A DNA stretch of 64,000 nucleotides from Isoetes taiwanensis (taxonomy: Eukaryota > Streptophyta > Lycopodiopsida > Isoetales > Isoetaceae): assembly GCA_021234155.1 (NCBI GenBank), contig JAJEKV010000075.1:1612001-1676000 (forward strand), in the 5' to 3' direction. Below, piece after piece: positions 12,281 through 53,459 of this stretch. Position numbers and translations under genes: made by a program. Every line of letters begins with the position of its first letter. Position 1 is the first letter of the stretch. The notes under the pieces were generated by a model. The model had not been told where the DNA came from and searched no databases. It was given only the letters and a program-made list of their open reading frames with translations.

Positions 12281-12301
12281 GTGCCCCAAAACGCCGGAGC
12301 T

Positions 12302-23630: not shown

Positions 23631-23639
23631 GGCCTCGAT

Positions 23640-32680: not shown

Positions 32681-32826
32681 TATTCCAGGTAGTGTTAACG
32701 ACACGAGAGTACTCCGTGTGTCAAGCTTTAAGGCACTAGTGGAAGATGGTCATCGATAGAATGGACCAGTGATGCATCATAACAATCAGCCTATTCGTGA
32801 GTAAATTCTAGGTGATGCTGGATACC
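32681..32826 (+). pseudogene. PIF/Harbinger transposase, part 2 of 3
   Basis: Continues part 1: PGSVNDTRVL (second catalytic aspartate) and, after TAG and TAA stops, ILGDAGY. The reading is cut at the codon for Y by the 20.3-kb element and resumes in the same frame with PLMPWL at 53,128. Confidence 0.88.
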
Positions 32827-32851
32827 GGGTGAAAGCATGTTGTAGTGGAAC
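32827..32851 (+). repeat. Left terminal inverted repeat
   Basis: Begins GGGTGAAAGCATGTTG and continues to 32,851; exact reverse complement of 53,100-53,124. A looser match (accacattttt / tgtggtggga) extends to about 32,900. Confidence 0.93.
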
Positions 32852-33071
32852 AAAAACGTGCATTTTAGCACCACATTTTTGGGTGCTAAGTGTGGTGGGA
32901 ACTACCGAATTTGTAGTGGGAGAGGGTGTAAAATCGCTAGTGGGGTACAACTTTTGGCGAAGCGTTTAAGCACTTTAAGTGCTGAAACTCGCGGACGTCG
33001 AAGCCCGTCACGCCCTTCTCCCTCCTTTTCCCCTGGGCGCGAAAACTCAGATCAGTGTTTCACTGTTGACG

Positions 33072-33386
33072 ATGGAGGCATGGAGCGCGGATGATTTTCA
33101 CACCATCAGAGGTCTGTGCAATTCGGGGGTGAAGCCCCACGAGGAAGAAGCTTGGTTGGAAAATAATGTCACGGATCGAGATTGGGATTCTGTTTGGACA
33201 AAGAAGTTGAAGAAGGGAAAGATAAAATGGCACTGTGCAAAGGAGCATCTTCAAGAGAAGTTGGAAACACTCTCCGAAAAAATCTACAAGAATTGTCACA
33301 ACAAAGAAGTAAGAAAGCAACTGCCCTTGCTTTTGCGCTTTGAAAATTGCACTAGATCAATACTTGCACCGAGGAACACAAAGTAA
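33072..33386 (+). CDS. Hypothetical protein, first exon near the left terminus
   Basis: ATG at 33,072, 245 bp inside the left terminus, opens MEAWSADDFHTIRGLC and runs as a charged, tryptophan-containing ORF. A GTAAGA donor at 33,310 (after HNKE) suggests an intron; otherwise the frame ends at 33,386. Downstream, 33,600-34,053 encodes a glutamate/lysine/leucine-rich stretch (EELKVLEEEQRLLHF) with coiled-coil character. Together with the FCP1-like exon at 35.0 kb these may be exons of one gene, all on the plus strand, but the middle (34.13-34.6 kb) is in a suspected low-quality patch and cannot be joined with confidence. Confidence 0.4.
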   Translation: MEAWSADDFHTIRGLCNSGVKPHEEEAWLENNVTDRDWDSVWTKKLKKGKIKWHCAKEHLQEKLETLSEKIYKNCHNKEVRKQLPLLLRFENCTRSILAPRNTK

Positions 33387-34979
33387 ATCGGGCTGCATTT
33401 GTCGTGCAATGTCAAAGATACCACAACAATAGACAAGTAAAAACAGAGGCGTATGTTGTAGCACATGTTAGGAAAAATCGAAATGAAGGCAAAGCCAAAG
33501 GTGGCAAAATGGATCAAATGAGGTCAAGTGCATGTGATGAAAACATAAAACCTTAGAGAATGCAAAGATGAGATTGGAAAATCAGTTTTACTTATCACAA
33601 AGAACTGAAGCAAGAGGGAAGTGAGCTGAAAGGCAATGAGAAGGCCTCTGAATTACAGAAAATGATGTTGGAAGAGGCTGAAAACAGTTTAAGACAGGCC
33701 ACAAATGATTTGGCTACAAAACAGGAGGAGTTCAAGCTTAATCCAACATGTGAGTTGGAGGCAGAAGTTAAAGATTTGGAGCAGACTGTCCAGATGGAAA
33801 CTTGGCACAGAACAAGGTACAAAAAGCAATGAACCCTACATCCGTTAATGAGCGTGTCAAACGTAAACTCAAACTTGAGGAGGAGTTAAAAGTTCTCGAA
33901 GAAGAACAGAGACTCCTGCATTTCTACATAAACAATTTGTGGAAGCTGAAAATGGATACTCCTGCAACATTTAGCATCTCTACTATTATACGAGATAAGT
34001 TGCTAGTGGAAGATTCATTTTATACATGTTCTAATGTGGTCCGAATTCACTAAAGCTTACAAAAGTTAGTTTAGCAATCGAATTGCCAACATGAGTATCA
34101 TATAGCTTGTTGTTCATTGTTGAGAGGAGGACAATGTATTCATGGTTGCCCCGAAAGGTGCCGAGGGTGTATTTGACGAGCTAGGTTTTGGCCATGTTGC
34201 GTGTGCTTCAAATAGTACACCAAAAAGGATGTGTTAATCCGGCCCCGCAATTGAGGTCTCACCGCTGAGGGTTCAAAGAAGGACAATGGTGCCATTTGAA
34301 GATGCACAACACACCGCAAAAGTCCTATAGGAGTACAAATCAATTGTGACTCGATTTGATTGCAACAAATGCAGAACCACCACCACCACCACCCAAGAAG
34401 TCATCCAAGAAGCTATAGAAGAAGTCAGAAACACAACACCGGTTGTGGAAAAAACAACAGACCGATTGTACACAATCGAAGCACCTAAGGAAGTTGAGGG
34501 AGTAATTCCATCTGGATGAGGGCAACTTGGCTGAATATTTGCGTAAAGGAAAGGGCGTAAGAACAAAGAGGGGTAAGCCGGAGGATAGCAAAGTAGTTGT
34601 TCAAAGCTACAAGAAAGAGAACAAGAAGTAGCTATGCAAAAGATGCAGAAGCGGTCTCAATCATGACACCACACATATCGGTGTGTTCTCAAGAAAATGC
34701 GTAATCAGGGCCCTCAAGGTTCAGGTGAGCCTGATCTTCAACAAGTGATTTCTGCCATTAATAACCCTGGAAAGGGGGTATGGGCATTGTTGGGCAAGTC
34801 CACAACTTAGTGTTGATTAAAACATTGAATATTATTGATTTTCTTTTGTTGCATTCACTGTAGGATTACCAGTTCATTCTGTTAGGTCAGAGAATCCTGC
34901 TGTTGATACAGAAAGGTTTCCACATTCAACCCATTTTTCATTTTCATCTTCATCTATTTATTCATGTAGTAATTCCTGT

Positions 34980-35733
34980 TGTGTAGGTATTCAGGATGTT
35001 CCAACGTACTAAATATTGATTTGCCAGCCAAAGATAAACTCATTGTCTTGGATTTAAATGGTGTGTTGGTAAAAACATTTGGTGCAAATGAACACATACG
35101 CTTGGAAGTAGGATTGACAATGACATACACTAGCAGAAAGAAAGTGATATTCGCACCCGAAGCGTTGTTCTTCTTGAAGACTTTGTTACGTATGTCGTGT
35201 TGGTATATGGTCATCAATGCAACTCTCCAATGTGGAAGATGTGTTTGCAAGTACTATGTCCAGATTTGAGGGACAGATTTGAATTTGTATGGGGACAGAA
35301 AAATGTGTGCGCACCGGTTTTCACCACCCTAACAAACCCGGGTCCGTCCAAATATGATGAAGCCACTTGGGAAAATATATGAGTCATACCCAAGATTCTC
35401 GGGTAAGACTTTGCTTCTTGATGATTCATTGTACAAGTCTTACCTTAGCAAATCCCCTGAAATTTCTCGGGTACCGCATTCAAGATGGATGTCCATGATG
35501 AAGTGCTTCCAGTACTCACCCCAAAGATAGAAGAAATACTGCAGGCCAAGACTGAGGAAGAAATGAAGTCACTGGTGAAGAATACACATAGATACAAGCC
35601 TTGGCCTAAGACAGATAGAAAGATTATGAAGCTATGCTTGGAAAGACTTTCTGGAAAACAGTTGCAGTTCTGCAGGTTTGTGAAGAAGGAATTGGAGAAG
35701 GTTTATGGTGATGACGCTTGTCATTCTCCATGA
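34980..35733 (+). pseudogene. FCP1-type HAD phosphatase-like domain, copy 1
   Basis: KLIVLDLNGVLVK (about 35,035-35,075) is HAD motif I of the FCP1/SCP family. After a frame change comes VGIWSSMQLSNVEDVF (about 35,195-35,245), the WSS motif II region, then FEFVWGQKNVC and, after another shift, KTLLLDDSLYKSYL (about 35,403-35,445), the DD motif. The C-terminal frame (35,485-35,733) is lysine-rich and ends at TGA. Intact members dephosphorylate proteins such as the RNA polymerase II tail. At least two frame breaks. Motif I has DLNG in place of the usual DLDE/DLDG, as in some plant members. Confidence 0.65.
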
Positions 35734-35739
35734 TTATTG

Positions 35740-36600
35740 GCCTGTTTGTCATTTATTTAGGCCAAGGAATCCTACACTTTTCATGTACCATCTTTATCTT
35801 AATTTAAGAATGTTATTGCTATATTGTTTATGTAGTTCAATGCAGACTTGTCTATAAGTTTTTGCTATATTGTTTATATATACTTCAATGCTGACTGAAA
35901 GGGATGCTTAAAACTTATCAAGTGCTTAAAAAAAAAAATTGCCTGCAAGTGCTATGGTTTGAGTCTTAATGGCAGATACTGCTTATTGTCTTGCAGTGAC
36001 AGATACTTTTATGTAGTTGCTTAATGTCATCATGTGCTTACTGTCATGCAGGTAAGGTGCAGTGCTTATTGCTAAGCCATATAACTATTTAAAGGTAGCT
36101 GTTTATTGCATAAGTGCTCGTGTGTTCCAGTGCTTACTCACTGGCACTGCTGAAAGTGATTAAAGTGCTTAGTGTTTGAAACTAATGAAAGAGCTAGAGC
36201 ATCATACACTCAAGCGAGAATCTAAATGGACTCCACATGTGAATTTAACTTCATAAATTTGATAGATAGACAAAAATAACATTTCATAGATGAAAACATA
36301 TATGTTCTCAGACCGCTTGCTTAGCTTCTTTGTTATGCTATATAACTGTTTTTACGATAGTCGTTTATTGCATGTGTGCTCTTGCATTCCAAAGCTTACT
36401 CACAAGCACCTTTGAAACTAATTAAAGTGCTTCGTGTTTTGAGCGAAGAGCTGTTACATTCAAAGCGAGAATATGGACTGTACAAGAATTCAATGTTTTG
36501 CCACCTGCATGGATAATAGAAGTAAGAACATCAAATGAATTCATTCTTTACTCAATAGAAAAAACAAAATGTGATGCTGAAAAGAAGTAGATGAGACAGT
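35740..36600. other. Non-coding interior of the 20-kb element
   Basis: AT-rich, with repeated phrases such as tgctatattgtttat (35,818 and 35,865) and ttaaagtgctt. A ~150-bp segment around 36,040-36,180 is partly repeated at 36,320-36,470. No gene. Confidence 0.45.
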
Positions 36601-36760
36601 ATAGAGAAAATTGTGAGAGACAAAAATTTTTGTATATTAACAAAATTTTTCTACAAAAAGGCCTTCAGCGGGTCTTCTTCGATTCGGGGTGTCTTTGATC
36701 GGGGTGGTCTTGGGGGTGTATTTGAACAGGGGTGTCTTCAAGGAAGTGTCTTCAGTGTCT

Positions 36761-36975
36761 TCAAGGGCTTTCTGGCTCACTCCACACATTCTCCTCCAAT
36801 TCCTGCCTCCTCTGCCTCTTAGTGGGGCGCTCTTCATAACAGTCCCGAAAAGCAACTTGTTTTTCTTCTTCTTCATCCGCCTCTTCCTCTTCCTCTCCAT
36901 CTTCCTCTTCCTCCTCAGAATTGTCTTCCTCAGAATTGTCTTCTTCTTCTTCTTCAGATTCCTCTTCTTCTTCCA

Positions 36976-37006
<31 letters not shown>

Positions 37007-37241
37007 CACTTCCTGCCCCACTTCTGTAAACAATGTTAGAAAAAGAAAAACAAAACAAAAAAAAAATGCAAAACAAGATAATACCTTCTTCTTCCTCTCG
37101 ATCTTCGGTGTCTGTTCTTGAATCTGGCTGAACCGGCTCGAAGAAGTAGGCCCCCTTGTATTGCGGAGCGACATCCGCATCTTCTGGCACTTGTTTAAGC
37201 ACATACTCTGGTGCTTGGTTTCCGCTGCATGTAGAGGCCAT
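36761..37241 (-). CDS. Acidic protein with basic cluster, 139 aa, two exons
   Basis: Exon 1 is 37,241-37,085 and exon 2 is 37,023-36,761, separated by a 61-bp GT-AG intron with a T-rich acceptor. The joined length is 420 nt, an exact multiple of three, and splicing carries the frame cleanly from EDREEEE into EVGQEVEEE. Residues 1-45 are mixed (MASTCSGNQAPEYVLK), followed by ~65 residues dominated by glutamate and then RPTKRQRR, a likely nuclear signal, and a short acidic tail. No known family. It follows the transposase-like gene on the same strand. Acidic nuclear proteins of this kind could act in chromatin binding or activation, but that is speculation. It is one of the few undamaged coding units in the element. 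Confidence 0.6.
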
Positions 37242-37731
37242 TGCAAATAAACGGAGCGTGAGGCGAATTGGAAACGGATTCTGCCGGCTTAAGGCGGTAG
37301 CGTGAGGGCGTAAGAAGAGCTGAAATCCTATGATTAGGGGCCTAGTGCTTAAATCCTATGCTTAGGCGCGTCAGTATACGAAAAACCTCACACGCGCCAG
37401 AACAATTAATTCGTAACCAGGCTTAAATAATTCGTATGACCATTGGAATTGACACATGTCACATCGAGGAAATGCCTTTACAATATAATTTTGCCAAGAA
37501 TGTTGGGATAGTGATGGTATCAAAATAAAAAATTGAATGTTATTCCAATGTCACAAATGTACATTCTTAAACAACAATTCAATCTTCATTTCAAAGTACG
37601 TGTCCATGCACACCACCCTTGTGCATCCTCACTATTATTAATATATATACAAATGTGTGCTTACGTGCTTAGGTGCTGGAACAACAAATCACTTGAAAAG
37701 AATGCCATCAATTTGGTTAAGTGTCAAAGAA

Positions 37732-40308
37732 TTACATTGTTATTGGGAGACTGGCCATAATTTTTTCATGGGTCTCCTGTGAAATTCTGTACATGTCTGT
37801 GCCTTCTATTTTTTCCATATCAATTTTAGGATATCTTACCACATGGTCAGTACCTGAGGCTTCGGGTTGTTTAGTGAGCAACATATACTTGAAATTACCC
37901 ATGAATTGATAATACAATCCACTTAAGATAACCTCATGCACTCCAAATTTTTGCCCCCATCCATCTTTGTATGAATCTTCAAGTGTGCATTTGGGTTCTG
38001 GCACTTGAGGATGTAGAAGTCCACACCCTCCTCAATTGTCTACCTCAAAGATTCACTTTGCAAATTGTCACCTACCTCTACCAAATTATCGATCCATTCA
38101 TTGGCTTGTTCAAGAGTCTCCTTTTTCTTCTCAACTCCTGGTTTTATGTCAGGTTACCTCCCACTTTCCAAATCTACTGTATTGATGCAGAGTCCCAATT
38201 ATGATCCATGCAAAACGAAAGCGAGAAAACATGACAGGGCATCTACGAGCAAGCCTGTTTGGTCTAGTCCTGGCGACAGTGTCCGACATGATGAATCTTC
38301 TTTGTGCCTTTGAGTGTTTCAATTTCATATTCTTCCATGTTTGCCACAACAAAGAAGTTCAATTTCCCAAAAATATCTTTTGATCTCATCTGTTTCATCG
38401 ACCGGTAGATCAATGAAATATGTACACGTAAATTTTACAATATCTTTAGCATGCCTCGGCTTGCACACCATTGGGTTTGAGTTGTTCCTTACTTAGCAGC
38501 CTTTTGATAACAAAGACTGCACCATCATGTTCACCTTTACCATGAGCAAAGGGCAAAGTAGTTCCACACTATTTCCTTGTCATTGATTGTGAAGTACCCG
38601 CCTAAGAAAAAAAAAAAGGTTTTCCCCGACTTGAATTGTGATGAGCAGCCATCACTCCAAAACCAATGCTTCTCATACTCTATTTCCTGTTCCTTAAGCC
38701 ATGCAACATGCTTCAGAGGCGTTGTTCCACAAATAATGAGTCATGCACTTTATCATCGAAATGTAAAAGTGAGTCTCTTTTATGATCTTCCTACCGTTGT
38801 TGAGTCTATTCCCGATCTGCTCCAACCTTCGTTTCTTTTTTTTCTCTTCTTTGACAGTCTTCTTCCGCATCGCGACAACAGAATATCAGCACTTTTGTCA
38901 TGCCTATATGTTATGTGAACAAGTATAGAAACTTGGTCTGTATGCCAGTGCATTGACTGGGGCTCATTCTGGATCTTGATGCTGTAATTTTCTGCAAAGT
39001 CAATAACAGATACAATTGTATCTTCTGGAAATGATGACACACACTGTTTAAACTGATTGGCCTGCCAATGTGCTATGTAATTGTGTGGAACAAAATCTGA
39101 TATTACCTTCTTCACTTCCTCTTGAAATTCTTTTGGGACTTCGTCATTCAGACTAATCTCAAGACAGGTTTGTACCTCAAAGCCTTTCTTGGATCCCTGA
39201 ATTCTCTGTCCTGGTCCACAGGTTGCTTTTCAAATGTCTTCCAATTAACTAGTACTGAACCCGTGCCATCCATTTCCTGTGGACATTTTCTAATTCTATC
39301 CAACCCACATTTTTTACACGCCAACATCAAGCAGTTATGATCAAACCACTCCTCATCATCACCTTTGCTGCAGACCACTTGTCTCCATAAATCACTGGTA
39401 CACTTGATTGTATGCTCCTTGGCTGCACATTCTGGGCCAGGGCCACAAATCTCACAGTGGCAGTTGCAATTGTCATGAACTCCACCCGATTTTCTCAGCC
39501 TGTTCAATCCTTGCATGATGTATTCAAATTTCAAGTGGTAAATGCAACAGCATGTATGCCTCTCACGCATCCTCCTTACAAAACTAGGTTTCAACCTCTC
39601 AAAAGTCTGCAATGCAATTTTGATATGAGGATTCTCCTCTCTAAACCTGAGGTAGAATTGCAACTGCAGGGAAATCGTGTGAATGCCAAATAAATGCTAC
39701 ATATAATGAACACTACAATATAGGATGAATACTTACTTGGCTGACTTCAAGAAGGTGAATTGGATGTTCCATCTTTATTCCTCCTCTGATACATACTTCC
39801 TCACGCCTTTCTTGTATGGAGAAACTCTTGTATTTTCTGTCCAGAACTTGATAACAGCTTCTCTATTGTGATCTAACATGCTATCCATCCGCTTCCTCCT
39901 CCTGAACATTGACCAAGGTCCTTCCCCTTTGTTAGCTTGCACCCTTCTTTGAAAAGCATTTGAAATTGTTTTTCTGGGGATGCTGAGCAATCTGGCCACT
40001 TCTGCTTGATTCAATGGCTTGACACCATTTGTACCTGCTGCTGCCATTATCAGGGTGGACTTCCTTGCACGAAGCATGTCATAATTCCTCTCAAACTTAT
40101 GTTCTTGCATTGTTTCCTTCAAATTCTTCACCATTTGCTCGGCCATAGTAACCTGCTTAGATTTCTTTATAGAAGCAATTGGTAAATCCCTTGCCCTCCA
40201 AAGAAGACTGTCAAGGATGCGGCCTTTGTCATTGTCATCAATATTTGTACTGATTTGGTTGAATACTTCATAAATTTCTCCTGAAATTTCTCTTATTCTC
40301 ATGGTCAC
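37732..40308 (-). pseudogene. Transposase-like gene (DFAENY family), copy 1
   Basis: Starts at ATG 40,308. The N-terminal 177 codons include AEVARLLSIPRKTISNAFQR, a helix-turn-helix-like segment, and end in YKKGVRKYVSEEE. Next (39,663-39,148) comes a Cys/His-rich domain: ERHTCCCIYHLKFEY, CNCHCEIC, CKKCGLDRIRKC. The core follows at 39,115-38,780 with SVIDFAENYSIKIQNEPQS, whose aspartate probably starts a DDE-type triad. The next ~800 bases are frame-broken. The C-terminal domain (38,004-37,732) contains GVHEVILSGLYYQFMGNFKYM. Homologous in order and motif to 52.9-51.2 kb. I recall similar proteins as uncharacterised in animals and plants; the transposase role is inferred from the motif order and its location in a TIR element. 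Confidence 0.6.
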
Positions 40309-40886
40309 TCAGTCTCAATTTCTTATTCGCCTTTGAAGGCTTAATCTTTAGAAGGGGAATTCTTCTTCATTGCTACCTTCTTTGCATATAATCTCGCCCT
40401 CTGATCTCTTTCCTTGTCGCATCAATGGCTCAGAATTGAATCGGGGAGAGGAATTGGGTTTCATCTATCCCGGATTTCTGTGTATTGCTGAATTGTTGAG
40501 GGCAAATTGTTGAATTTCGGTTCAGGCAATTCTTGGAAACAATTAGTCCCTCCATTTTGCTTGAATTCAAGATGGGTTAGCCCGCCATCCAGGAATATGG
40601 CGGGCTACAGGCATTCATGTTTCCGGCACCAAACATGTTCATGATTCTCTCAGCCTGTCATTTGACGGGCGCGCACCCTACATGTCAATACTTCAATCAC
40701 GCACGTCGTGTTTAAAACACACCGATTTTAAGCACTTGTAAGCGGCGTCCGGACGGTGATTTCTGCTACCCAGTACCGATTTTGCACCCGAGAAGCAGTT
40801 AGTTTTTCAAAAATACACATGATTACTTATTCAAAATTTTGTCCTTTCAGTCTTATTCAGGCTTATTTAGCAATGTACACGATCAT

Positions 40887-41006
40887 TTTCCCTCAAAAAC
40901 TCTGATCATGCTCCCTTAATCCGGCAAGACCATTTCTGATTCTGAATTTTCATTTTCCCTCAAAAACTCTGATCACGCTCCCTTAATCCGGCAAGACCAT
41001 TTCTAA
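40887..41006 (+). repeat. Direct repeat (~55 bp, two copies) in a divergent promoter region
   Basis: Copies at about 40,888-40,942 and 40,953-41,007, both reading ttccctcaaaaactctgatc and later ttaatccggcaagaccattt with few changes. They lie between the minus-strand transposase-like start (40,308) and the plus-strand ATG at 41,033. Confidence 0.85.
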
Positions 41007-41032
41007 TTTCTGGCAAGAAGATCGATCACGAA

Positions 41033-41404
41033 ATGGCTCTGATCATACCGGACTTGAATGCCACGGGATACACCTACAAGGAAATGTACAGGCAAGAAAA
41101 GCATTACGCCACACAAAGAGGAAATCGAGTCTGTTTGGGGACCGAAAGTATTAGGAAAATCCACTTACAGGTGGGTTGCATTCTAGATTCGGGGATGCCC
41201 ATGATTCTCTGTTGTTTAGAATATTATTTTGTTTCATCATGCAGGTTGAAGAATCTGAGCAAGGAGAGGTATAACGAATATATGTGCCTTTACAAAAAAA
41301 TCACAGGCAGGAAGTGTGCCTGGAGAGGCATGGCCTCACAGACTATGGTTGTTGCGTATTACCTTCACACAAAAGGAAAAGAAATAAACTGGTTGAGTTT
41401 CTGA
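41033..41404 (+). CDS. Hypothetical protein, 123 aa
   Basis: ATG at 41,033 directly after the 55-bp direct repeat. Begins MALIIPDLNATGYTYKEMYR. CAG|GTGGGT at 41,170/41,171 and TTTCATCATGCAG at 41,232-41,244 look like an intron, but removing it puts the second part (NLSKERYNEYMCLYKKITG) out of frame, so the unspliced reading is given. Downstream the ORF stops at 41,404 and a Ser/Lys-rich segment (KRKHASISNSEEAEQH) follows in the same frame after the stop. Family unknown. Confidence 0.35.
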   Translation: MALIIPDLNATGYTYKEMYRQEKHYATQRGNRVCLGTESIRKIHLQVGCILDSGMPMILCCLEYYFVSSCRLKNLSKERYNEYMCLYKKITGRKCAWRGMASQTMVVAYYLHTKGKEINWLSF

Positions 41405-41928
41405 CAACAGTTAAGAGAAAAAGGGTCTGAAGCCTCTCCGTCCCAACGTAAGAGGAAGCATGCAAGCATTTCAAATAGTGAGGAAGCAGAGCAACATGCC
41501 ACAGATGATGCTTCCTCTCTTGAAATGACTAGGCCACAATTCAAGCCTCCTCAAGTCAGAAGAAGAATCTCTGGGAAAATCAACGAAAAAATAGGTACTT
41601 TTCAACCCTCTTCTTCCGGAACCACCATATGATGCAATTTAATATTGGAATTGTTATTTTCCAGCAAAGGTCTAGCAAGCTTGAACAATCACGCACACCA
41701 CTTACTTCTTCATTTGGGTGTGTTGTAAGTTATGTGTAGGAAATTTGTCTTTGCTAGTTTCGAAGTTGTGGTGGATAATTTCAGTTCCATGATGGTATGT
41801 AGCTCCAAATGTGTTACGTGACGGTCATATGGTGCCAATTATATGTTAATAATGTAGTTTGTAGCATATGTAGTGTCACATATAGTACCAAACGTGGTAC
41901 CTTAACTGAATAGTGAATTGGCTTCTAT

Positions 41929-42310
41929 ATGTTTCTATACTTAGTGTCATATGTGGTGTTAGATATGGTGATACTTGTGAATGGTGGATTGTCTGCCATA
42001 TGTGGTGCCAACTGCTGCGCTAAATATTGCACCACGCCATCCGCCACATATGGGGTGGTGGATGCCCACGGATGTGGTGCCTTCTGTGCATTGTGGTGCC
42101 ACATGTGGTGTCTAATGTGGCACCACTATGGATCCACATTTTGCACCACATGTGGTGTCTTTGACGCCATTTGTGGCGCGAAGTAATGGATTGCCATATG
42201 TGGTGCCTTGGGTGCATTGTGGTGCCATATGTGGTGAATATGACGCCATTTGTGGTGCAAAGTTTGTCATGATGGAATTTGTGGTGTGTAAAGTGGTGCC
42301 CGTTGTGTCA
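41929..42310. repeat. Array of tgtggtgcc-type repeats
   Basis: Irregular 18-40 bp units centred on catatgtggtgcc / ttgtggtgc, more than fifteen copies. ORFs in both strands here (CGAxC... repeats) are repeat translation. Confidence 0.85.
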
Positions 42311-42349
42311 TGTGGTACTAACCTTGGATTACTTTCCGGTTGAATTCAA

Positions 42350-43190
42350 CAGACACCGGGAGAATGGATCAACTCTACAAGATCGAAGTGATTCAAAGGG
42401 CAAGGCAAGGTTGCAAACTTGTGATCAAAGCCCGCAGTGCTACAAATGAAGGTTCAAAGAACTTGAGTTCCGCACCGAGAAGATGAATAAAGATGTAAAA
42501 AATGGGAAGGAATGATTAAGGATAAACCAAGTCGTGCGAGGCGGTATTCCGGCTATATGCCAAGATACGAGGTCGAGCTGAAGGAACTATTACGAAACTT
42601 GAGCGGACAAAAATCGAGGAGCTTAATCTGGCACGGCCGAGAAGCGTACACAACAAAGATTGAAAGTCTTTGGAACCAAGGTTAGAGAGGTTTCTGTCTT
42701 GCAAGGACCGTCTTCCTTTATTTGTCTTGGATCCACTACTTCCAGACCTTGATAAGGCTGAAGATTATGGTAGTGGCTGTCCATTCTGTGGCAAGATCCT
42801 CCAATGGATGGGGAAACCACTACCAACTTTGATTGCCGAATGCAAATCACCAATACCATCTTCCATGTCCGCTTTCGGCCTCTTGAGGTACTTCATAACA
42901 AAATTCTCAAGTGCTTAGTATAATTGTATTCTCATTGACAAATTTTATTCACTTTGGTCGGATTTGTAAGTTGCATTGAGAATTGTCATCATGAATTTTC
43001 TCTGACATGGGTACAAGCCTTAGGTGTGAGTAGGGAGGATCAAAAGCAACTTCAAGCTACTGAGGCACTTACAGGTGAGCACTTATAGGTAGCTTAGTTT
43101 ACATGCTAAGGGCCTGATGTAAGGGACAGATGCCAATTAGGATTAGTGGACTTCCTAATCTTTCACCTCGCTTAGTCTCTTTTCGTTTGT
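42350..43190. other. No recognised gene; partly suspected low-quality sequence
   Basis: 42,370-42,650 has few CAG/CTG and many CG, like the patch at 15-17.7 kb. A minus-strand ORF 42,859-42,623 and plus ORF 42,670-42,918 overlap, neither recognised. Confidence 0.4.
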
Positions 43191-43197
43191 CTCGTTT

Positions 43198-43437: not shown

Positions 43438-43499
43438 TATATAAACAGAACATCGTAAAAGAGAGTAAAAAGTCCGGAGCTTAGTTAAAAACCAAAGCA

Positions 43500-44400
43500 T
43501 AGTTACAATCAATTGTGATTCAATTCTAGGTTTGCAGAGCATGGTGCCGTTTACTAATTCAGGTCTAACTGTTCATACTGGTGGCAATGACTTTGTGAGT
43601 CCATATAGCACACCAAAAAGGGAATTATTTTCTACTCTCAAAGATAACCAAGTCTTGTTTGATGCAATTGGGATATGTAGCTTACTTCTTCATCCCTACT
43701 TTATAGATATAGAGGTACAATGTGGTCAGGTAGGGGGACAAGACACTGACACCCCTTCAAAGCATTAGACACAGATAGAAACTTCGGGCAAATCGTCGGA
43801 AGATGCATCGGGGTTCTGAGGAACTTCGGACAAATCGGTAGATGTCAACAAATCGAGAGGGTGCATCAAGTCAAGCTCCGATAGATGCTCCAATCGGACA
43901 ACAATCTGCCGGATCGGCCGGATGCATTAAGTCATGCTCCACACCAATCGCCAAATCAGGCCGGATGCATCGGTTATGATCCGAACAAATCGTTCGGTGA
44001 ATGTAAGTCACAAGATAACTTCCAACCTTTTGTGCTGTCTTCTTTTTAATTTGACCCATATACTTACCGAATCATTTAAATTTTTGCACTTGGAAGTGTC
44101 TCGGAGAAAAAGCAAGAGCAAAATTCCAAGCAAAAGACACCTCCAAGACATTCTCAAGGAAGTTTCCAGCCACGCACCGAAGAGATCTTTGAAGCGAAGT
44201 TTCCACCGCACCAAGAAATGCTTTGGCGAAGTTTCCAGATACACCAACTCTGTCCATGCAGAAGACTACAAGGTTAAGCCCAATCCTGCTTGTTTTTTAC
44301 TACAATGGAGTTCTGGGTAGAAGCTATGACAAGAGTGAGTTACTACCCACTGCCAAAGAAGTTGGTGTTAAGTTGATCACACTTAAGTAACCAAGTGGGT
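43500..44400. other. No recognised gene
   Basis: Short ORFs only (43,532-43,768 +, 43,934-44,320 +). 43,790-44,010 is CAG/CTG-poor with iterated caaatcg/gatgcatcgg phrases and may be low-quality sequence. Confidence 0.4.
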
Positions 44401-44414
44401 AGTAACTAGACCCA

Positions 44415-44902
44415 GTGGGCCGAGTTCATAGATTGGTGCAGTCAGAATTTTCATATAGCACTTTGGTCCAGCCTGCAGGCTCAAACTTGAGAATCATAGT
44501 TAAGGGAGCATTGATGAAACACAAGGACAAATTCAAGTTCATATGGAATCAGGATCAGTGTACCAACACAAATTTATTTAACAGTAAAAAGCCAATTTTT
44601 TTGAAGCACCTCAAAAAGGTCTACGATTTCGGTGTTTCACAAAAGAGAATGTGCTTCTCATTGATGACAGCAGATACAAAGGGTACCTCAATGAGCCAAA
44701 CACCATGATCTGTTCAAACAGCTGGAGCCCTGGCAGACTAGATGGCAATTTCCTCATAAATGATCTAAAGGTTTGGCTTCAGGGGTTGCTGAAGGCAGGG
44801 AATGTGCCAAGTTATGTCGAAAGCAACAAAATGCTGAATATGTTTGACACTGAGAGTCAAATTTGTATTAATATGATGAAAAAACATAGAACTAAAGCCT
44901 AG
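44415..44902 (+). pseudogene. FCP1-type HAD phosphatase-like domain, copy 2
   Basis: First frame: NLRIIVKGALMKHKDKFKFIWNQDQC (about 44,485-44,565), the region after the WSS motif, then KKPIFLKHLKKVYDF. A frame change near 44,640 leads to ENVLLIDDSRYKGYLNEPNT (about 44,645-44,705), the conserved DD motif, and NSWSPGRLDGN...LKVWLQGLLKAGNV to the stop at 44,902. Motif I with the nucleophile aspartate is missing, so this is a C-terminal fragment, of a different subtype from copy 1 at 35 kb. Confidence 0.65.
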
Positions 44903-44919
44903 AAATAGTATTATTGTGT

Positions 44920-46010
44920 ATATGATGTAACCTCTCTTGACTTTTTAATATAAACAAAGTTTTACTTCAATTGTTCATTTCTTGGCTATTTCAATGTTCC
45001 AGAACACTTGCCACTTGAAGTGTTTAAAGGACAGCAGGAGCCTCTTGTGCTTGATCAAGAGGCAATCAGAATATTGGAGAAAAGTAGGGATTGGTTCAAA
45101 GGACAGATAGTCCATTTCTTCATGAGGTTAGTAATTTAATATAAACAACTTCAGATTTGAAGTCTTACATTGTTTCTTAAATCATCTTGTTTTACCGACC
45201 TTGGACTTTGGCGGTGTATGCACCAATTACGCATCAAGCATGACATGGAACGAGGTTCCATTTCATGGATCCGCCATTTACACATTACCGTCCGAACTAG
45301 CTTGCTTCAAAGGACAAACTGTTGAACCCTCAACTTGCAATTTCAGAATGTACCATTCTCGCCAAAGATGTTATTAGCAAAGACCGGCCGATGTATGGCA
45401 TTGTAGGTCTTGGAGGTCACCCGGTTAAATGTCGGCCAGTGTGTACCATTTTGACACCTAGAAATGTACAAGGGCTCCGGAGCCCTGTCATGAGTTTTGT
45501 TGAGGATGCAAACACAAAATTCCCAAAGCACCATAAAGCTGCTGCCACAAGAAAATTACAAGTTCCCCCACTTTCGGTCCCATTCTTTGGTCGTGTGGTC
45601 CTGCTATATGTGTCTTTGTAAAGAAAGTTGTGGCTGCAGTAATGTCGAGACTTGGACATACTATCCCAATGCAAGGTGAGTTCGTAAATTTGAAGGTATT
45701 ACTCATCCAATGTGAGGCCTGATATGTTTGTTGCAGGGGTGTACCAATTTCTAGTAGCGAAACATTGGACACGCCGCTGAATGATGATTGATGTTGTGAA
45801 GCACGGTTGCTCTAGTAATGAAGTCGAGGTTGATGGATCAATAGATCTTTACTTGTAATCACATGTTTGTATTATTGTAACCAAAGAGGTTATTCTTGTA
45901 ACCTATTCTTTCATTGACACTCTAATGTACATTGTTGTATACTATTGTATACAATAGACTTTTTTCTCGGGTGACCCGAGCAACACTGGTGGAGTTCAAA
46001 TCTCCAGAAG
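44920..46010. other. No recognised gene
   Basis: 45,190-45,560 is mildly CAG/CTG-poor. A 94-codon minus ORF (45,772-45,488) and overlapping plus ORF (45,322-45,621) compete; neither is recognised. Confidence 0.4.
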
Positions 46011-46019
46011 AAATTGATG

Positions 46020-46680
46020 TATTCAAAGATTCATGACAATGTGGTGATACATGTCGTGATAGATGTGGTGATGCAAATGGTGCATGTGGTGAATCATGTG
46101 GTGCATTTGGTGAACCATGTGGTGAATCATGTGGTGAATCATAGGTGGCATGTTGGAGCCTACGTGGCATGTTTGAGCCACCTTGGCATGTTGGAGCCTA
46201 GGTGGCATATTTGAGCCTTGGCATGCTTGAGCCTTTACATGACCTTTGTTACATGTTTGACTTTCATTGACCAACATGTTTGGTGATGCAAATGGTGCAT
46301 GTGGTGAATCATGTGGTGCATTTGGTGAATCATGTGGTGAATCATGTGGTGAATTATAGGTGGCATGTTGGAGCTTACGTGGCATGTTTGAGCCACCTTG
46401 GCATGTTGGAGCCTAGGTGGCATATTTGAGCCACCTTGGCATGCTTGAGCCTTTACATGACCTTTGTTACATGTTTGACTTTCATTGACCAACATGTTTG
46501 GTGATGCAAATAGTGCATGTGGTGAATCATGTGGTGCATGTGGTGAATCATGTGGTGAATCATGTGGTGAATCATAGGTGGCATGTTGGAGCTTACGTGG
46601 CATGTTGGAGCCTAGGTGGCATGTTTGAGCCACCTTGGCATGTTGGAGCCTAGGTGGCATATTTGAGCCTAGGTGAAGCG
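46020..46680. repeat. Large tandem repeat of catgtggtgaat units
   Basis: Two to three copies of a ~235-bp unit (starting near 46,060, 46,280 and 46,500). Each is made of shorter iterations of catgtggtgaatcatgtggtg followed by ggtggcatgttggagcc iterations. The long His/Met/Pro-rich minus ORFs (46,660-46,023) are translations of the repeat. Confidence 0.9.
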
Positions 46681-46973
46681 TAAGTCAACAATTGAAGTCA
46701 ACAATCAATTTACACTAGCTAATTATAACTAAAATTACTAAACAAGTGCCAAGCCAACATAATATGATTGGTGTCCAAAAAAGAATGGCCATTTCAGGAT
46801 AGATATTTTTTTTTTATGTTTTTTAGAAAATAAAATAATGGTCATTTCGAGGTTATTATTAGTATCCTACTAAAGCATTATGATTAAGATACTAATGGTA
46901 CGAAATCCTAAAATCGTAGCCTACGAAATTAATTTCACGCCAGCCTTTATAGGCTATGGTCGTGAAGGAGAAG

Positions 46974-48062
46974 CATCGTCCAATTCCTATGGAACATTTG
47001 GAAAGCAAGGAATCGGGTGTTATATGGTAAAAAAAGTGTGTCCATCTTCTGGTTAAAAATGCACTTTCAGTTTGATTTTGAGACTATTGCTACAGCACAT
47101 AAAAAGAAATTTGGAGCTAATTTTGATAGGAAATGGGAAGAATATGGTTTGTATAGGGGTCACTATGATTTGTTTGCTTCCAATCTAAATGTTGTGGTCT
47201 CTAATTTATTTCTTTCTGATGATCCTAGAGTATCTTAGTTTCTTACGGGGAGAAGGAAACAACAAGTTTGATACCAGCAGCTCTCCTTTCAATCAGAGAT
47301 CTCGGGATCAAGTCATGAAAAATGACATTGCCACTTCTATGGAGTCATTCCTGATGAAAAGAGGACGTATGAGTTACAACAAGGAGAGTGAAGATATGTG
47401 GGCAAGTATATTTTGCAGGGAGGTCATCCAGCTCCATTTATTGTGGAAATTCCCCGACAAAGAAATAACCGAATTCTCACAGAAGCTCAGCTCTCAAGAT
47501 ATAGAACATGGTACTATAGTCACAAATTACTGGCAGATCTATATGGGTCACTGTTAATTCTTCTGGAGGATAAGGATTTGTTTCGACTCTGCTATCAAAA
47601 TAATTGGCCCCTTGTCCAATATCTCTTTGGCTCCACAGATGCCGTTAATGCCTACTTCAATTCCTACTTCTCGGATCAACTTTGCTTTGAAATCCCTCGT
47701 CCATTTGACCTTTAAGCCAAGAAGCATATACCGGCTTTTATTTTATTTAAGTTATGGTTTACTCTTTTGGTGGATTTCATTTTTGGCAGGTTTGCAATTT
47801 GCTCGTTGGAATCGGTTCTGCTCCGGAATTGTGTCCTGCTGTTTACCTACTGCTATTTCATTCTACCAAGGGTGGTTGCTGATCGTTCTTCCTCCTTAAT
47901 CTGAAGACTTCATTTTACGCTCTGTTTACACTCTATTATCAACTGCTACACTTCACTATATTTTGATATGCTTCTCCTAAAAGCATACTTTTGCTATGTA
48001 CTCTGAGATTTCATAATTAATGATAAAACCAACTCTTACCTTCAAAAAAAAAAAAAAAAAAA
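46974..48062 (+). pseudogene. Unknown-family unit A with poly(A) tail
   Basis: Frames along 47,017-47,715 encode a protein ending ARYRTWYYSHK-like...LADLYGSLLILL then LCYQNNWPLVQYLF and a stop at 47,713-47,715. The first part (WNIWKARNR near 46,980) recalls the tail of plant LINE polyproteins. Two frame changes (about 47,240 and 47,400). The unit ends at 48,043-48,062 in an A-run preceded by ataattaatgataaaacc, like a retroposed transcript or LINE 3' end. It is paralogous to unit B (49.97-51.08 kb): NDIATSME/RDIGTSVE, YYSHKLLADLYGSLLILL/YYHHESPADAYGTLIILM. Function unknown. Confidence 0.5.
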
Positions 48063-48192
48063 TTTCCTTCCAACAGAATGTCGAAGCTCTGCCTCCCCTG
48101 GCCCTCATAAGCGCCGGAAACTGCTATCAATCCCTTTGGCTGAGGTCCTTGCCAGTCATGGCATAGGATCTTGGCCAATTTTTCATTTGTAG

Positions 48193-48556
48193 GAGCCCGA
48201 TCCTGTGACCCTACTACCCGAGAGCCCTGAGCCTGAGAGCTCTGATTCGTATTCCACCTCTTCTGAAAGCTTTGAAGATCTTTCGGAGCTTTCAGAAGAG
48301 GTGGAATCCTCCTCTAATTTCGATTCCTCTGATGAAGCTTCTTCTGATGATCCCCAAGATTCCCAAGATTCTGATAACGAATGGAGCGAAGACCAGACCG
48401 AAGAACAAGAAGAGGTAGAAGACGAAGAAGAACATGAATTTTTTTTGGAACTCCAAAATTTTCTACAGAGTAAGTAGCATGCATGCATTAAATTTTTGCT
48501 TTCTTTTATGTATTCTAAACTAATTTTCTTCACTTTTTCTTACAGATGAAGCTTGA
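48193..48556 (+). CDS. Acidic protein, C-terminal exons
   Basis: A TTTCATTTGTAG acceptor opens an exon at 48,193 reading EPDPVTLLPESPEPESSD and then a serine/glutamate/aspartate-rich run to 48,469, where a GTAAGT donor occurs. A CTTACAG acceptor at 48,545 adds NEA and a TGA at 48,554. If unspliced, the frame stops at 48,477. A preceding frame (48,065-48,190) has HKRRKLL, a basic cluster reminiscent of the KRQRR of the 37-kb acidic protein, and could be the previous exon. No known domain. Confidence 0.45.
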
Positions 48557-48599
48557 AGTCCCGGCTGTGCCACCTTTTTTTTTTTTCTTTGAACAGGTT

Positions 48600-48740
48600 T
48601 AGTGAAACAGGCCTTAGTGCCTCTTTGAATGTAATGGCCTTGTGCCTCTGATTGTAATGGCCTTAGTGCCTTTTTTGATTGTAATGGCCTTAGTGCCTCT
48701 GATTGTACTATATGATGGCCTTAGTGCCTTTTTGATCTAT
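48600..48740 (+). repeat. Tandem repeat of ggccttagtgcct
   Basis: Five iterations of a ~30-36 bp unit built on tgattgtaatggccttagtgcct. Confidence 0.9.
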
Positions 48741-48962
48741 TAATGTGAATCATCTTTTTCTGCAAGTCCTACTTAATACTGTCAAAGGAAATACAAAAAC
48801 CAAACTAGTTACAACTGATGCACTTCCAAACCAGAGCAGAGGCTGGGTGTGTCACTTTCACCCTGTCAATTAAACAGTGAGAGATTGAAGAGTGAAGATT
48901 TATATTAAACATATAAAATGATTACATAAGGTTACATTTCAGATTACAAGCCAGTGTTGCTT

Positions 48963-49598
48963 TCATTCCTGTGCGTCTATCAAAAAGAGATCTGGGTCCA
49001 GCTCCTCCTCGTCATCTTCTATGACCACCAGATCAGTGGCCACCGGGTCAGCTTGCCGGCCTATTTCATCCCATTCTGGAGGGAAAGCAAAAACCATAAT
49101 GGTGCAAAGTTACCAAAACGTATAGCGGCTTCTCCATGTGCATCCCCGCAAGCCCTTGTGATGATAGAACATATCCCCTCAAGTGAAGGAATTGTTCCTC
49201 TGAAACAACCTATCATAACAAAAGCGTAACCTGTCTAGCGTAAAAGCTTGGTAGCCATTAAGCGTAAACGGTTTCAACCTTTGCGCATCCCGGTCAATAG
49301 TAGGAGGAATAGGCCAAAGATGCCGGTGTGTAAAAATTTCGATGGAAAGCGAGAAAAGTTGAGAGATCCGGGAGGTTTGATGTACAATTCATCCTCCCGG
49401 TGAGAGTTTTCAACATTTCGTGGTCATATTCTCGTCCGGTGAATAGAGAAATTTCTGTTGCCTGAGAATGCCCATCCATTCTGCATGGGTGAAAATCGGG
49501 ACAGCATGCCTAGGTATCATGGGCTCTTCTTCTCTGGTGACATTGTCCCATTCCGGCACTCCATCGTTTTGCAGGATCCAAGAGGTGAAGTTGGTCAT
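48963..49598 (-). CDS. Hypothetical protein with acidic C-terminus
   Basis: Likely start MTNFTSWILQNDGVPEW at 49,598; the first frame runs to 49,410. A last exon at 49,075-48,963, after a strong CTTTCCCTCCAG acceptor, reads NGMK or WDEIGRQADPVATDL, then VVIEDDEEELDPDLF and a TGA. The middle (49,230-49,560) is in a CAG/CTG-poor patch, so exons cannot be joined. Third acidic-tailed unit of the 20-kb element. Confidence 0.35.
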
Positions 49599-49627
49599 GT
49601 CTGCTGAAGTAGCTGCTGTAAGCTGTA

Positions 49628-49675
49628 AACTGTAAACTGTAAACTGTAAACTGTAAACTGTAAACTGTAAACTCG
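49628..49675. repeat. (gtaaact)n minisatellite
   Basis: About seven tandem heptamers, ctgtaaa/gtaaact. Confidence 0.95.
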
Positions 49676-49966
49676 GTCGGGAGCAAGAAGAATGGCACCT
49701 CGGGCCTTTTGGGTTGCCCGAGGTCATTAATTTTTGCCATCCCATAATGATTTTTGCCCGAGGTACGGCTGTCAGCCAAAGGATGATGAGAGGAATTGAT
49801 GGGACCGAGAGAATTTAAGGAAAAGGAAAGCATTTCAGTGGAAAAGCTGTTCAGAAGGATCTCTGTCTCGGGGGAAGAGACAGAAAGTGAAACACGTGGT
49901 GAAACATGTGGTGACACATGTGGTGAAATTTATGGCGAATTTTCCCCAAAAAAATAAACTTTTACA

Positions 49967-51082
49967 TGGCCCGTCAGCCCTAAATTCAAATTCTCTTTCG
50001 CTCCTTCACAATTTCATGCTCCTTCCTGCTGCTCAAAGGGACGCTCTACTCTCACAGTTAAGTGCATTCCATCTCGATCCCAAGATCCTCTGTCAAAAGA
50101 TATGAACCACTTCAGCTATTTTGCTCCAAACTGGGATACACTCTCTCTGGATCAAAGAGGATCTCAAACTCTGCCAAGATTGGATGCTAATGGTGTACCA
50201 GTTCCTCTATTTCCGAGACCAGCTGGGCCGAGCATCTTGGACGAGCAATTTGCTTCAGATTTTGAATACCAACAATCCAGAGTCCCCACAAACATACAAC
50301 TATTCAGAGATTACATGAGGAACCTTAGCAGAGACATTGGAACTTCAGTGGAACCTGTAGAATATAGATTGTTCCCAGGGCAGAGATTGGTACACGATAT
50401 TCAATACACTCATGACATGTGAACAGGCACAGTTAGGGGCATCACAGATATAGATATAATTGATATCCCTGATGATGAACTAGAATGGGCTATAGAATTC
50501 TGCAGAGGCACATATCTTATGCATCAAATATGGTGGTTCATGGAAAGCAACAGCGAAAGAATGACAGTCGCCAGGTTTGAGTACTACAAGGAATGCTATT
50601 ATCATCACGAAAGCCCAGCGGATGCATATGGCACTTTGATAATTTTGATGTCCACTACCAATGCAGACAGGCTGATTACTGAGCTAAACTGGGGAAATGG
50701 CAACACTCTTATACTTCAGCCTAATTTCCGAGCTCACCATGAATTCCTAAACATCCATTTCCACACAAATCACCCCACTCTTCCACATCATTGACTTGCA
50801 CCTCTCCCTTTTTTTGACAAGAAACAGATCTGTATATAACTTCTGCATCTTATTAACATCTACATCTTTTCTGCAGGAATTGGTCTGCTCACTCTGTTGC
50901 AGCATAACACATATCACAACTACTACTGTTATTATAAAACATTGCTATGTGCTTTCAACAGCACGTACTTCATTTGTATTTATTTGCATGCTTTATCATG
51001 AGTAGCCTACCTATAAAGGCTCACTCACTATGTTGTACCTTTTTCTATAATTAATGAAAAAAACCCCATTCACTCAAAAAAA
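49967..51082 (+). pseudogene. Unknown-family unit B with poly(A) tail
   Basis: An in-frame stretch 50,102-50,794 (231 codons) broken once by TGA at 50,420-50,422. It opens MNHFSYFAPNWDTLSLDQRG, continues RDIGTSVEPVEYRLFPGQR, then IPDDELEWAIEFCRGTYLMH, RFEYYKECYYHHESPADAYG and ends HTNHPTLPHH with TGA. An upstream frame (to 50,105) supplies LLPAAQRDALLSQLSAFHLD. The 3' end at about 51,070-51,082 is an A-run after ataattaatgaaaaaaacccc, closely matching unit A's tail. Better preserved than unit A. A short gtggtgaaacatgtggtga array (49,890-49,925) precedes it, as a longer array precedes unit A. Function unknown. Confidence 0.5.
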
Positions 51083-51239
51083 AAAATACAATTGAGCATG
51101 GAATTGAGTTTCTTATATTATTCCCGAACAAGGCAAGACACAACAACATATATTCAAAATTTCTGAATCATTTCCTAACCTGTAAGAATGTGTTCAACTA
51201 TTCTTCATCAGACATGCTATCTTCATCGATAAAACCTCG

Positions 51240-52915
51240 GCAAGTTTTCTAGAATCTTTTCCTCATCTTTGGTCTAGCACTCATAAACGCTTCTCGAGCA
51301 CCTTTCTTGATCTGGCTGCATGGGAACTCGAATAGCACAAATTTGAGTAGAGAATACAAGTGACTTTGGCTCGTTTGTCAACAACTCATACATCACCTTT
51401 TGACCGAGGCTTCTTTCTATAGTAAATGCCCTCCACAACGGTTTCACCTCTCATAAACAAGTTTCCGCTCGCTTGAAGTCATTTTCAACTTCAAATTTTG
51501 GCTTGGTGCATAGCAACATCCAAAATACGTAATCCTCCTCATTCCCTTTAGGTGCGGCAATCGCAAAAGTCGTCTCCTTCTCTAAGTGCTTCGCAAGTAC
51601 ATTTGCCAAGGTTGAGTATAGTGGCTCGGTAGACTTGCGGGTCTCTTCCACATCCGCATGAACATTGGAGGATGGTTCAACGACTACAAGGTTCCATTCA
51701 TCTACATACAATTTGTTCTCACACATGTCCCATTTTCCATCCAAACAATTGCTGCAAAAACATGATAGCTTTCTGGTATGTAGCTATGTTGGATTTCCTG
51801 TGCTGAATCCATGGACTGAATGAATTTGCCTGGTTTTTGGAATTGTCTCTGCACCCCAAGCCTTTTTTCTGTTGATATCCTCAGGTTTTATTTCCCAGAA
51901 GTATCTCTGAACTTTTCTTCTATTTTCAGTCCACTCAGATGTACCACATTGAAATTGTTTCTCTGCAATTTTCACCACATCATGGGCATTATCTAGTTTA
52001 ATGTCAGGATGTTTAAGCTGTAGACCTCGTATCCATCTTTTCAATTCTGTTGCCTTCCCATCATGTTCACCTTTTCCATGGTTTGATCCAAAGAAGTTCC
52101 ACATCATGTTGACCTCTGTATCACAACTGTACCTTCCAACAAAATAAAATGATCTGGCTGCTTTGAATTGTGATGCAGCACCATCTGAAAATACATAGTG
52201 CTGTTTGGGGACATTGCCTTTCTGCTTTAAGTACTCAAAATATTTCATAAAACAATGTTGAACAAAAAGTGTGTCATGTTCCCTATCATCCGACACATAG
52301 TAGTGTGTTTCCTTCTCAATGGTGTCTGTCTGTGGATCAACCTGATAGGTTATTTGAACAAATATAGTTATCTGGTTGTTGACCCAGCGCATGGACTGAA
52401 CTTCATTCTGCTCCTTAAAAGTATAATTCTCTGCGAAGTCAACCACGGATAGGTAAGCATCTCCAGGCAAGGTATCAAGGAGTTCTTTGTCTTGGCACGC
52501 ACGCCACTTATATCCGAAAGTTGTGTAAAGGAAATTTTGGAAGCTTCTCCAACATTTTGTTCACCAATGGAAGACTTGCGGTTTCATTGTGTTGGTGAAA
52601 TCGAGCTTAGACTTCTTCTTTGCCATCTCGAATACGGTTTTTTCATATTCTAGGTATTCCCACTTCACCATGCCACTATCACTAGATTGTTCATGTGGGC
52701 AGATAGGGAACTTCTTAATCCCACACTCTTTACACTCACCCAGAATGCATTCCCTCTTATGGTAAGGTTGGAAGCTAGTTTTCTCACATAAGATTCCCTG
52801 CCACAGACTTCTTGTGCTACTTATTTTGTATTCAGACGCCCTGCATTCACCATATATGTCTGACCTGCAAAGCTGACAAGTGCAGCTGCAGCTTTTTGGG
52901 TGCTTAAGCCGCGGG
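51240..52915 (-). pseudogene. Transposase-like gene (DFAENY family), copy 2, 5'-truncated
   Basis: Opens at about 52,900 inside the Cys-rich domain (CSCTCQLCRSDI), with CKECGIKKFPICPHE near 52,735-52,690. The central 228-codon ORF (52,470-51,784) has VVDFAENYTFKEQNEVQSMRW, then HYVFSDGAASQFKAARSF, then FGSNHGKGEHDGKATE, the probable three acidic-site blocks of a DDE-like core, and KAWGAETIPKT. After a stop the C-terminal part continues (51,744-51,451: WNLVVVEPSSN, DYVFWMLLCTKP). No helix-turn-helix part. It begins only ~190 bp inside the right terminus and points inward. The C-terminal portion falls in a CAG/CTG-poor patch (51,215-51,735). Confidence 0.65.
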
Positions 52916-53099
52916 TGGGTCGTGGGTTTAGAAATCAGTTCGGAGATTGGAATGGGACGGGTGGCGTAGGAAACGGATTATTGCAGTTCAAGAAATGATT
53001 GAATCCGGGCAGTACATGCACTAGGTGCCAAACAAACATTTAAAATCGCACCACAAATTTGATATCTCCCACCACATTTTTAGGGGGGACACCCAGGGT

Positions 53100-53124
53100 G
53101 TTCCACTACAACATGCTTTCACCC
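53100..53124 (-). repeat. Right terminal inverted repeat
   Basis: Ends ACATGCTTTCACCC; exact reverse complement of the left terminus, followed by the TACC target copy at 53,125-53,128. 52,910-53,099 is non-coding subterminal DNA containing cgcaccacaaattt and cccaccacattttta. Confidence 0.93.
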
Positions 53125-53453
53125 TACCCGCTAATGCCATGGTTAGTTGTACCATATTCAGGTAAGAGGCTTATGCCATTGTTTGATAAGTTTAATTTCA
53201 TGCATTGCTCCACACGCATGTCTATGGTGAGGGCGTTTGGTTTATTAAAGAAATCTTGGCAATACTTGGAGACGATGGTGCGCTTACCCAACTTGGATCA
53301 TTTGTCCAAAAGTATTACAACATGTGGTATGTTGCACAATATAATGATTGATCGTGGAGATAGATACGTTGCACAGGTTTACGCAGATGTAGATCACGTG
53401 GATTATCATCATGATAAAGGATATACCTTATCGTGGGCATCCACCTCTAAATG
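53125..53453 (+). pseudogene. PIF/Harbinger transposase, part 3 of 3
   Basis: PLMPWLVVPYSGKRLMPLFD, NFMHCSTRMSMVRAFGLLKK and TTCGMLHNIMIDRGD, the C-terminal motifs of PIF/HARBI1 nucleases, with a stop at 53,451-53,453. The catalytic glutamate expected in (V/E)E(R)AFG is valine here (MVRAFG), so even the repaired protein would lack the third acidic residue. Reads in frame from part 2 across the 20.3-kb insertion. Confidence 0.88.
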
Positions 53454-53459
53454 ATGGAG

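Follow-up and report, generated by a model that had tools for sequence, protein, structure and literature searches.

Introduction

Among the described DNA transposons, the Sola elements appear to come closest to the locus reported here. As reviewed, they encode a three-aspartate (DDD) transposase, generate 4-bp target-site duplications (TSDs) and have variable termini, with terminal inverted repeats (TIRs) of 11-1124 bp and lengths of mostly 2-9 kb, in some cases over 15 kb; they are recorded in moss, and rarely in flowering plants (PMC10741241). Sola2 elements of amoebozoa carry accessory genes, including Fanzor1 (PMC3627910). Enzyme genes beside the transposase are also described from fungal DNA transposons of many families, which carry TET/JBP dioxygenases (PMC12730594). 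The locus analyzed here lies in Isoetes taiwanensis (Lycopodiopsida), in a stretch of 64,000 nucleotides (assembly GCA_021234155.1, contig JAJEKV010000075.1, positions 1,612,001 to 1,676,000 of the forward strand), which is called the window below and in which all positions are counted from the first letter. A block of 20,298 bp within this window, inserted in a Harbinger transposase gene, very probably consists of two nested cut-and-paste DNA transposons that belong to one Sola-like family.

The comparison with Sola is based on described features and not on sequence, and the family is called Sola-like in this sense. A 4-bp TSD was present at both of the two insertions (TACC and GAGA), aspartate columns and a predicted integrase-like core would correspond to the DDD transposase with RNase H fold, and the TIRs (26 and about 22 bp) as well as the element lengths (12,428 and 7,866 bp) lie in the ranges given for Sola; the moss record is a further point of likeness (PMC10741241). 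An accessory gene seems to be carried as in the amoebozoan Sola2 elements, but it would encode a phosphatase and not Fanzor1, and TACC and GAGA differ from the AT-rich TSDs described for those elements (PMC3627910). The arrangement of an enzyme gene beside the transposase is shared with the TET/JBP-carrying transposons, which, as described, belong to other superfamilies, have fungal hosts and carry a different enzyme (PMC12730594).

Element ends and nesting

The outer element is an insertion in a PIF/Harbinger transposase gene, and the target sequence TACC was duplicated (32,823-32,826 and 53,125-53,128). Its TIRs, GGGTGAAAGCATGTTGTAGTGGAACA at 32,827-32,852 on the plus strand and the matching right end at 53,099-53,124 on the minus strand, are identical over 26 bp, and base 27 is the first at which they differ. 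Their outermost 22 bases are found at two sites in the window when up to 3 mismatches are allowed, and at none in 100 shuffles. The same ends are supported by a subterminal imperfect inverted repeat of 34 nt with 79% complementarity (32,888-32,921 on the plus and 53,046-53,079 on the minus strand). Joining the two flanks yields one continuous frame 2, ...ILGDAGY-PLMPWLVVPYSGKRLMPLFDKFNF..., and the open reading frame (ORF) of the right flank (53,044-53,454) matches the Pfam family DDE_Tnp_4 with 32.1 bits (cut-off 24.8), while the upstream Harbinger piece (29,422-29,871) reaches 17.5 bits, which is under the cut-off. The Harbinger gene served as the landing site; its transposase is unrelated to those of the two elements, and the TSD given for canonical Harbinger elements has 3 bp (PMC12730594). 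The same gene is also interrupted just left of the block, at about 29,920-32,681, by a fold-back of about 2.76 kb, an almost perfect palindrome whose arms contain tandem repeats.

A second pair of TIRs lies inside this insertion. The inner element extends from 32,924 to 40,789 (7,866 bp), its left TIR GGGTGTAAAATCGCTAGTGGGG (32,924-32,945, plus strand) matches the right TIR GGGTGCAAAATCGGTACTGGGT (40,768-40,789, minus strand) at 18 of 22 positions, and GAGA is found on both sides (32,920-32,923 and 40,790-40,793). Its left end lies 97 bp inward from that of the outer element, where the outer subterminal repeat stops. Both elements thus have GGGTG termini and 4-bp TSDs, and the nesting of one in the other means that the outer insertion is the older one.

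The inner pair was recovered by a scan of the block for inverted pairs with a 14-base terminus, up to 2 mismatches and an exact flanking duplication of 4 bp. The scan returned 12 pairs, namely, the outer element, a shifted register of it, the inner element, and nine weak pairs that were set aside because they had at least 6 mismatches in 22 bases. With 3-bp TSDs the scan returned 42 pairs; the best 25 were of low complexity or weak. These scans of the block showed no third element with ends in GGGTG. As a control, pairs with up to 4 mismatches in 22 bases and an exact 4-bp TSD were counted in the region 32,701-53,250 and in 40 dinucleotide shuffles. The region contained two such pairs, both beginning with GGGTG, and the shuffles contained six, distributed over five shuffles and none of them beginning with GGGTG. 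In the whole window the same settings gave, besides the two reported pairs, two more at 4,688/4,840 and 37,039/61,937 and many within the fold-back (29.9-32.7 kb).

An initial annotation of the sequence had described the block as a single 20.3-kb TIR element with exact 25-bp inverted termini, flanked by TACC and interrupting a Harbinger frame that is restored by its removal. Most of this description holds: the termini are exact, even one base longer than stated, TACC is present on both sides, the joined flanks form an open frame, and the boundaries are as secure as had been claimed. The Harbinger gene does contain a TIR element flanked by a 4-bp duplication. However, the pair at 32,924/40,789 with its TSD GAGA had been overlooked, and a single element is not what the block contains under the preferred reading. 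Two nested members of 12.4 kb and 7.9 kb explain the size as well as the presence of two diverged copies of the transposase and the phosphatase.

Transposases

Each element contains a transposase gene on the minus strand near its own right end. Transposase A of the inner element (37,720-40,308) is covered by tblastn pieces of the proteins P0001, P0038 and P0040 from 40,272 to 37,720; it is of full length, from the N-terminal part through the C-terminal end, and is broken by several frame changes. Its first ORF has matches to helix-turn-helix families of Pfam, all of them below threshold. Transposase B of the outer element (51,274-52,977) is read in one frame with three in-frame stops and lacks about 300 N-terminal residues. 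P0038 and P0040, two long relatives, align to it in tblastn only from residues 333 and 296 onward, respectively, and just 147 bp are left between the gene and the end of the element, which shows that the N-terminal part is gone. Either the outer copy was moved by a transposase made elsewhere, or the N-terminal part was lost after the insertion. Both copies of the element look broken today.

The two transposases are related, with 37.5% identity over 88 amino acids (aa) (E 1e-16) and 31% over 83 aa (E 6e-12), and all eight relatives used as tblastn queries matched both A and B. A protein search with transposase B yielded 62 relatives at E 0.001 or better. Nine of these have a source name, and the four with an organism name are two proteins of the liverwort Calypogeia fissa and one each of Taxus chinensis and of the beetle Brassicogethes aeneus. 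Two alignments were made, one of transposase B with 36 of the 62 relatives (37 sequences) and one of a 258-aa ORF with 44 of them (45 sequences). They contain the conserved blocks DFAENY, SDGAASQFK and HGKGEHDG. In the ORF 51,784-52,560 of transposase B, a triad is formed by D41, D126 and D167 (D-84-D-40-D). The third aspartate is invariant and the second is conserved to at least 90% in the 45-sequence alignment; the first reaches at least 90% in the 37-sequence alignment.

The core of the transposase is predicted by a structural model to have an RNase H/integrase-like fold and to be a DDD enzyme. Several observations speak against this prediction. The first aspartate is not among the 90% columns of the 45-sequence alignment, which includes fragments without that residue, both Calypogeia proteins lack the stretch around it, and the beetle protein has a tyrosine in place of the second aspartate. 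In addition, the top Foldseek matches were to NurA, with a poor superposition (root-mean-square deviation about 17). None of the 45 alignment members matched a Pfam transposase family at E 0.01, and a search of PDB sequences with the alignment gave three matches at E 0.25 and worse. Searches for relatives in viral contigs (56 pattern matches) and in prokaryote genomes (75 pattern matches) gave no confirmed case.

Phosphatases

Each element also appears to contain a plus-strand gene for a NIF/FCP1-like phosphatase upstream of its transposase. Phosphatase 1 of the inner element (35,018-35,482) and phosphatase 2 of the outer element (44,277-44,833) are both read from pieces in three frames. The first motif is DLNG in phosphatase 1 and FYYNG in phosphatase 2, so that the catalytic aspartate of the latter looks lost. 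After the pieces were joined, phosphatase 2 matched the Pfam family NIF (PF03031) with 32.8 bits, above the cut-off of 21.8, and the two phosphatases showed 26% identity over 155 columns (BLASTP E 2e-7 in a single comparison).

The assignment has to be weighed against a number of contrary results. Both readings depend on the joining of pieces from three frames, phosphatase 1 remained under the NIF cut-off even when joined (17.8 bits, E 0.0028), and the four unjoined pieces, two per phosphatase, had no NIF match in Pfam. Earlier joins of both genes gave no NIF match in one version; in another version they gave 13.1 bits for phosphatase 1 and 22.9 bits for the C-terminal part of phosphatase 2. 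When an early join of phosphatase 1 served as the query of a protein search, none of 346 candidates matched at E 0.1, and the unjoined pieces matched each other at E 0.006-0.007, which is not above the level of chance-looking rows of that comparison. PDB searches with the phosphatases retrieved two dual-specificity phosphatases at E 1.2-1.3 and, in further searches, nothing at E 1.

The initial annotation had listed transposase-like, phosphatase-like and acidic proteins as cargo of the block. The transposase-like ORFs are borne out by A and B, acidic ORFs are present, and by frame reading there are phosphatase-like pieces in each element. The phosphatase was thus correctly noticed, yet it is less likely to be cargo of one copy than a standing gene of the family, because the layout is the same in both members.

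Other open reading frames and neighboring features

The inner element also contains broken ORFs for a charged, possibly coiled-coil protein by our own reading (33,072-34,053, plus strand), without a Pfam match above the cut-off, and an acidic low-complexity ORF in a repeat array (36,761-37,288, minus strand, from the ORF list), which may be no more than a frame left open by a TCT-type repeat. Homology between the acidic ORFs of the inner and the outer element was weighed and dropped, since their strands are opposite and the inner one runs through that repeat. In the outer element there are ORFs without a Pfam match at 40,973-41,632 (plus strand) and two paralogous ORFs on the plus strand, U1 (49,958-50,794; one frame with one stop) and U2 (47,189-47,715), with 36% identity over 50 aa and an E value of about 1e-6. 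This pair is confined to the outer element, and the nesting does not account for it. A protein search with U1 gave no match at E 0.001 among 306 candidates, and an ORF at 2,773-3,207 (U3) was dropped as a third copy, with E values of 0.35 and 0.096 in a five-sequence set. A minisatellite is located at 46,066-46,631 of the outer element (218-bp unit, 2.6 copies, 95% matches).

Comparison of the ORFs of the inner with those of the outer element gave 14 matches with E values up to 0.01. Transposase accounts for all four below 0.0003, and the other ten, including one piece of the charged ORFs (E 0.0058), are at chance level. A point against two members of one family is that nothing in the other element corresponds, above a chance-looking level, to U1, U2, the charged ORFs or the ORFs at 40,973-41,632.

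Elsewhere in the window, a RAM2-type glycerol-3-phosphate acyltransferase (GPAT) gene is found at 12,143-13,988 (Pfam HAD_RAM2_N 157.9 bits, Acyltransferase 31.2 bits), which points to a land plant as host, and a fragment at 58,572-59,057 matches the carotenoid oxygenase family RPE65 of Pfam with 53 bits. Long retrotransposon ORFs of 635, 240, 255 and 276 aa at 18,243-22,270 are presumably of the Copia type, and an ORF at 22,885-23,670 (minus strand) has motifs that we take to be those of a LINE-type endonuclease. A 497-aa ORF with a cysteine-rich patch and without a Pfam match (5,007-6,500) could, as a guess, be part of another undescribed transposase.

Discussion

The features of several superfamilies were compared with the transposases and TSDs of the block. 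The Gypsy-type integrase of Ginger elements corresponds to the Pfam model rve, and this domain was found neither in the transposase pieces nor in the 45 alignment members (E 0.01). The hAT elements belong to a group with a C/DxxH motif between the second and the third catalytic residue. The same motif is described for Kolobok, MuDR and P (PMC10045372). It does not occur in residues 126-167 of the ORF 51,784-52,560, and the feature common to hAT, Kolobok, MuDR and P is thus lacking. PiggyBac elements duplicate TTAA, which is at variance with TACC and GAGA. Ginger and the C/DxxH group therefore appear disfavored. For the CMC group (CACTA/Mirage/Chapaev/Transib), the signature C(2)C and H(3-4)H is described between the second and the third catalytic residue (PMC12730594). 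Residues 126-167 of the same ORF contain one cysteine and no C(2)C, so this signature is not present as a whole; H(4)H (residues 161 and 166) precedes the third aspartate, and this half of the CMC signature weighs against the placement with Sola.

It is quite possible, if somewhat less than evenly so, that the family lies outside Sola, either in one of the other groups with TSDs of 4 bp (Academ, Ginger, Chapaev, IS481EU) or in a new superfamily. Academ elements have TSDs of 3-4 bp and a cysteine-rich finger, and the transposases reported here also have cysteine-rich parts. The half signature just mentioned and the lack of any Pfam transposase family point in the same direction, and the match to Sola is one of description. 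On the other side stand the absence of rve, the absence of C(2)C between the second and the third aspartate, and the combination of a DDD transposase with a 4-bp TSD, which fits Sola as reviewed (PMC10741241). The statement of the initial annotation that the element matches no nameable plant superfamily was thus half right: TSD, DDD triad and length agree with what is described for Sola (PMC10741241), but the agreement is one of description.

The role of the phosphatases can be read in two ways. NIF/FCP1-like genes are numerous in plants, host gene capture is frequent among transposons, and the two phosphatases are only 26% identical; hence host genes might have been captured twice independently, with no bearing on the life of the transposon. 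We regard this as somewhat unlikely, since both genes have the same strand and the same place relative to transposases that have diverged far. It seems likelier that the family has the phosphatase as a standing partner gene than that it was picked up as random cargo, because phosphatase and transposase share their layout in two diverged members. A literature search, which left most subscription papers outside, found no report of a phosphatase in such a DNA transposon among the papers listed.

It is very improbable that the whole block is one single composite element of 20.3 kb with several captured genes. The outer TIRs and their TSD are exact and all genes lie between them, but a further TIR pair is enclosed, complete with a TSD of its own, and transposase and phosphatase occur in two diverged copies that are cleanly divided by the inner boundary. 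Least probable is a chance match of the inner TIRs together with an old internal duplication of the genes of one element: the inner TIRs agree at 18 of 22 positions and five of the 40 shuffles held some pair this good, but none of the six shuffle pairs began with GGGTG, between the inner ends a full-length transposase and a phosphatase are arranged as in the outer element, and nucleotide similarity between the two elements is confined to one stretch of 109 bp and one of 23 bp (E below 0.001), so that any duplication would have to be very old.

The nested pair of Sola-like elements suggests the following course of events. The outer element entered the Harbinger transposase gene and duplicated TACC, and a second member entered later at a site 97 bp from the first one's left end, duplicating GAGA. 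From the established knowledge of such enzymes, the transposase would bind the element ends through its N-terminal domain, excise the element, and insert it where the two target strands are cut 4 bp apart. As a standing partner gene, the phosphatase would perhaps have RNA polymerase II or the transposase as its target, which is speculative.

The absence of a Pfam family in all 45 members suggests that such elements may be filed as unknown repeats or as host genes. If the phosphatase is indeed a standing partner gene, the family would represent a DNA transposon with its own signaling enzyme, comparable to the fungal transposons described with TET/JBP dioxygenases (PMC12730594). A more far-reaching view, which we consider unlikely, is that of a plant transposon lineage outside the named superfamilies. 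Its marks would be termini with GGGTG, TSDs of 4 bp, a conserved second gene for a NIF/FCP1-type phosphatase, and a transposase with D-84-D-40-D spacing that has no Pfam family and extends into animals. In such a lineage, the phosphatase could act on the tail of polymerase II or on the transposase, and by this action the element could escape silencing or time its transposition.

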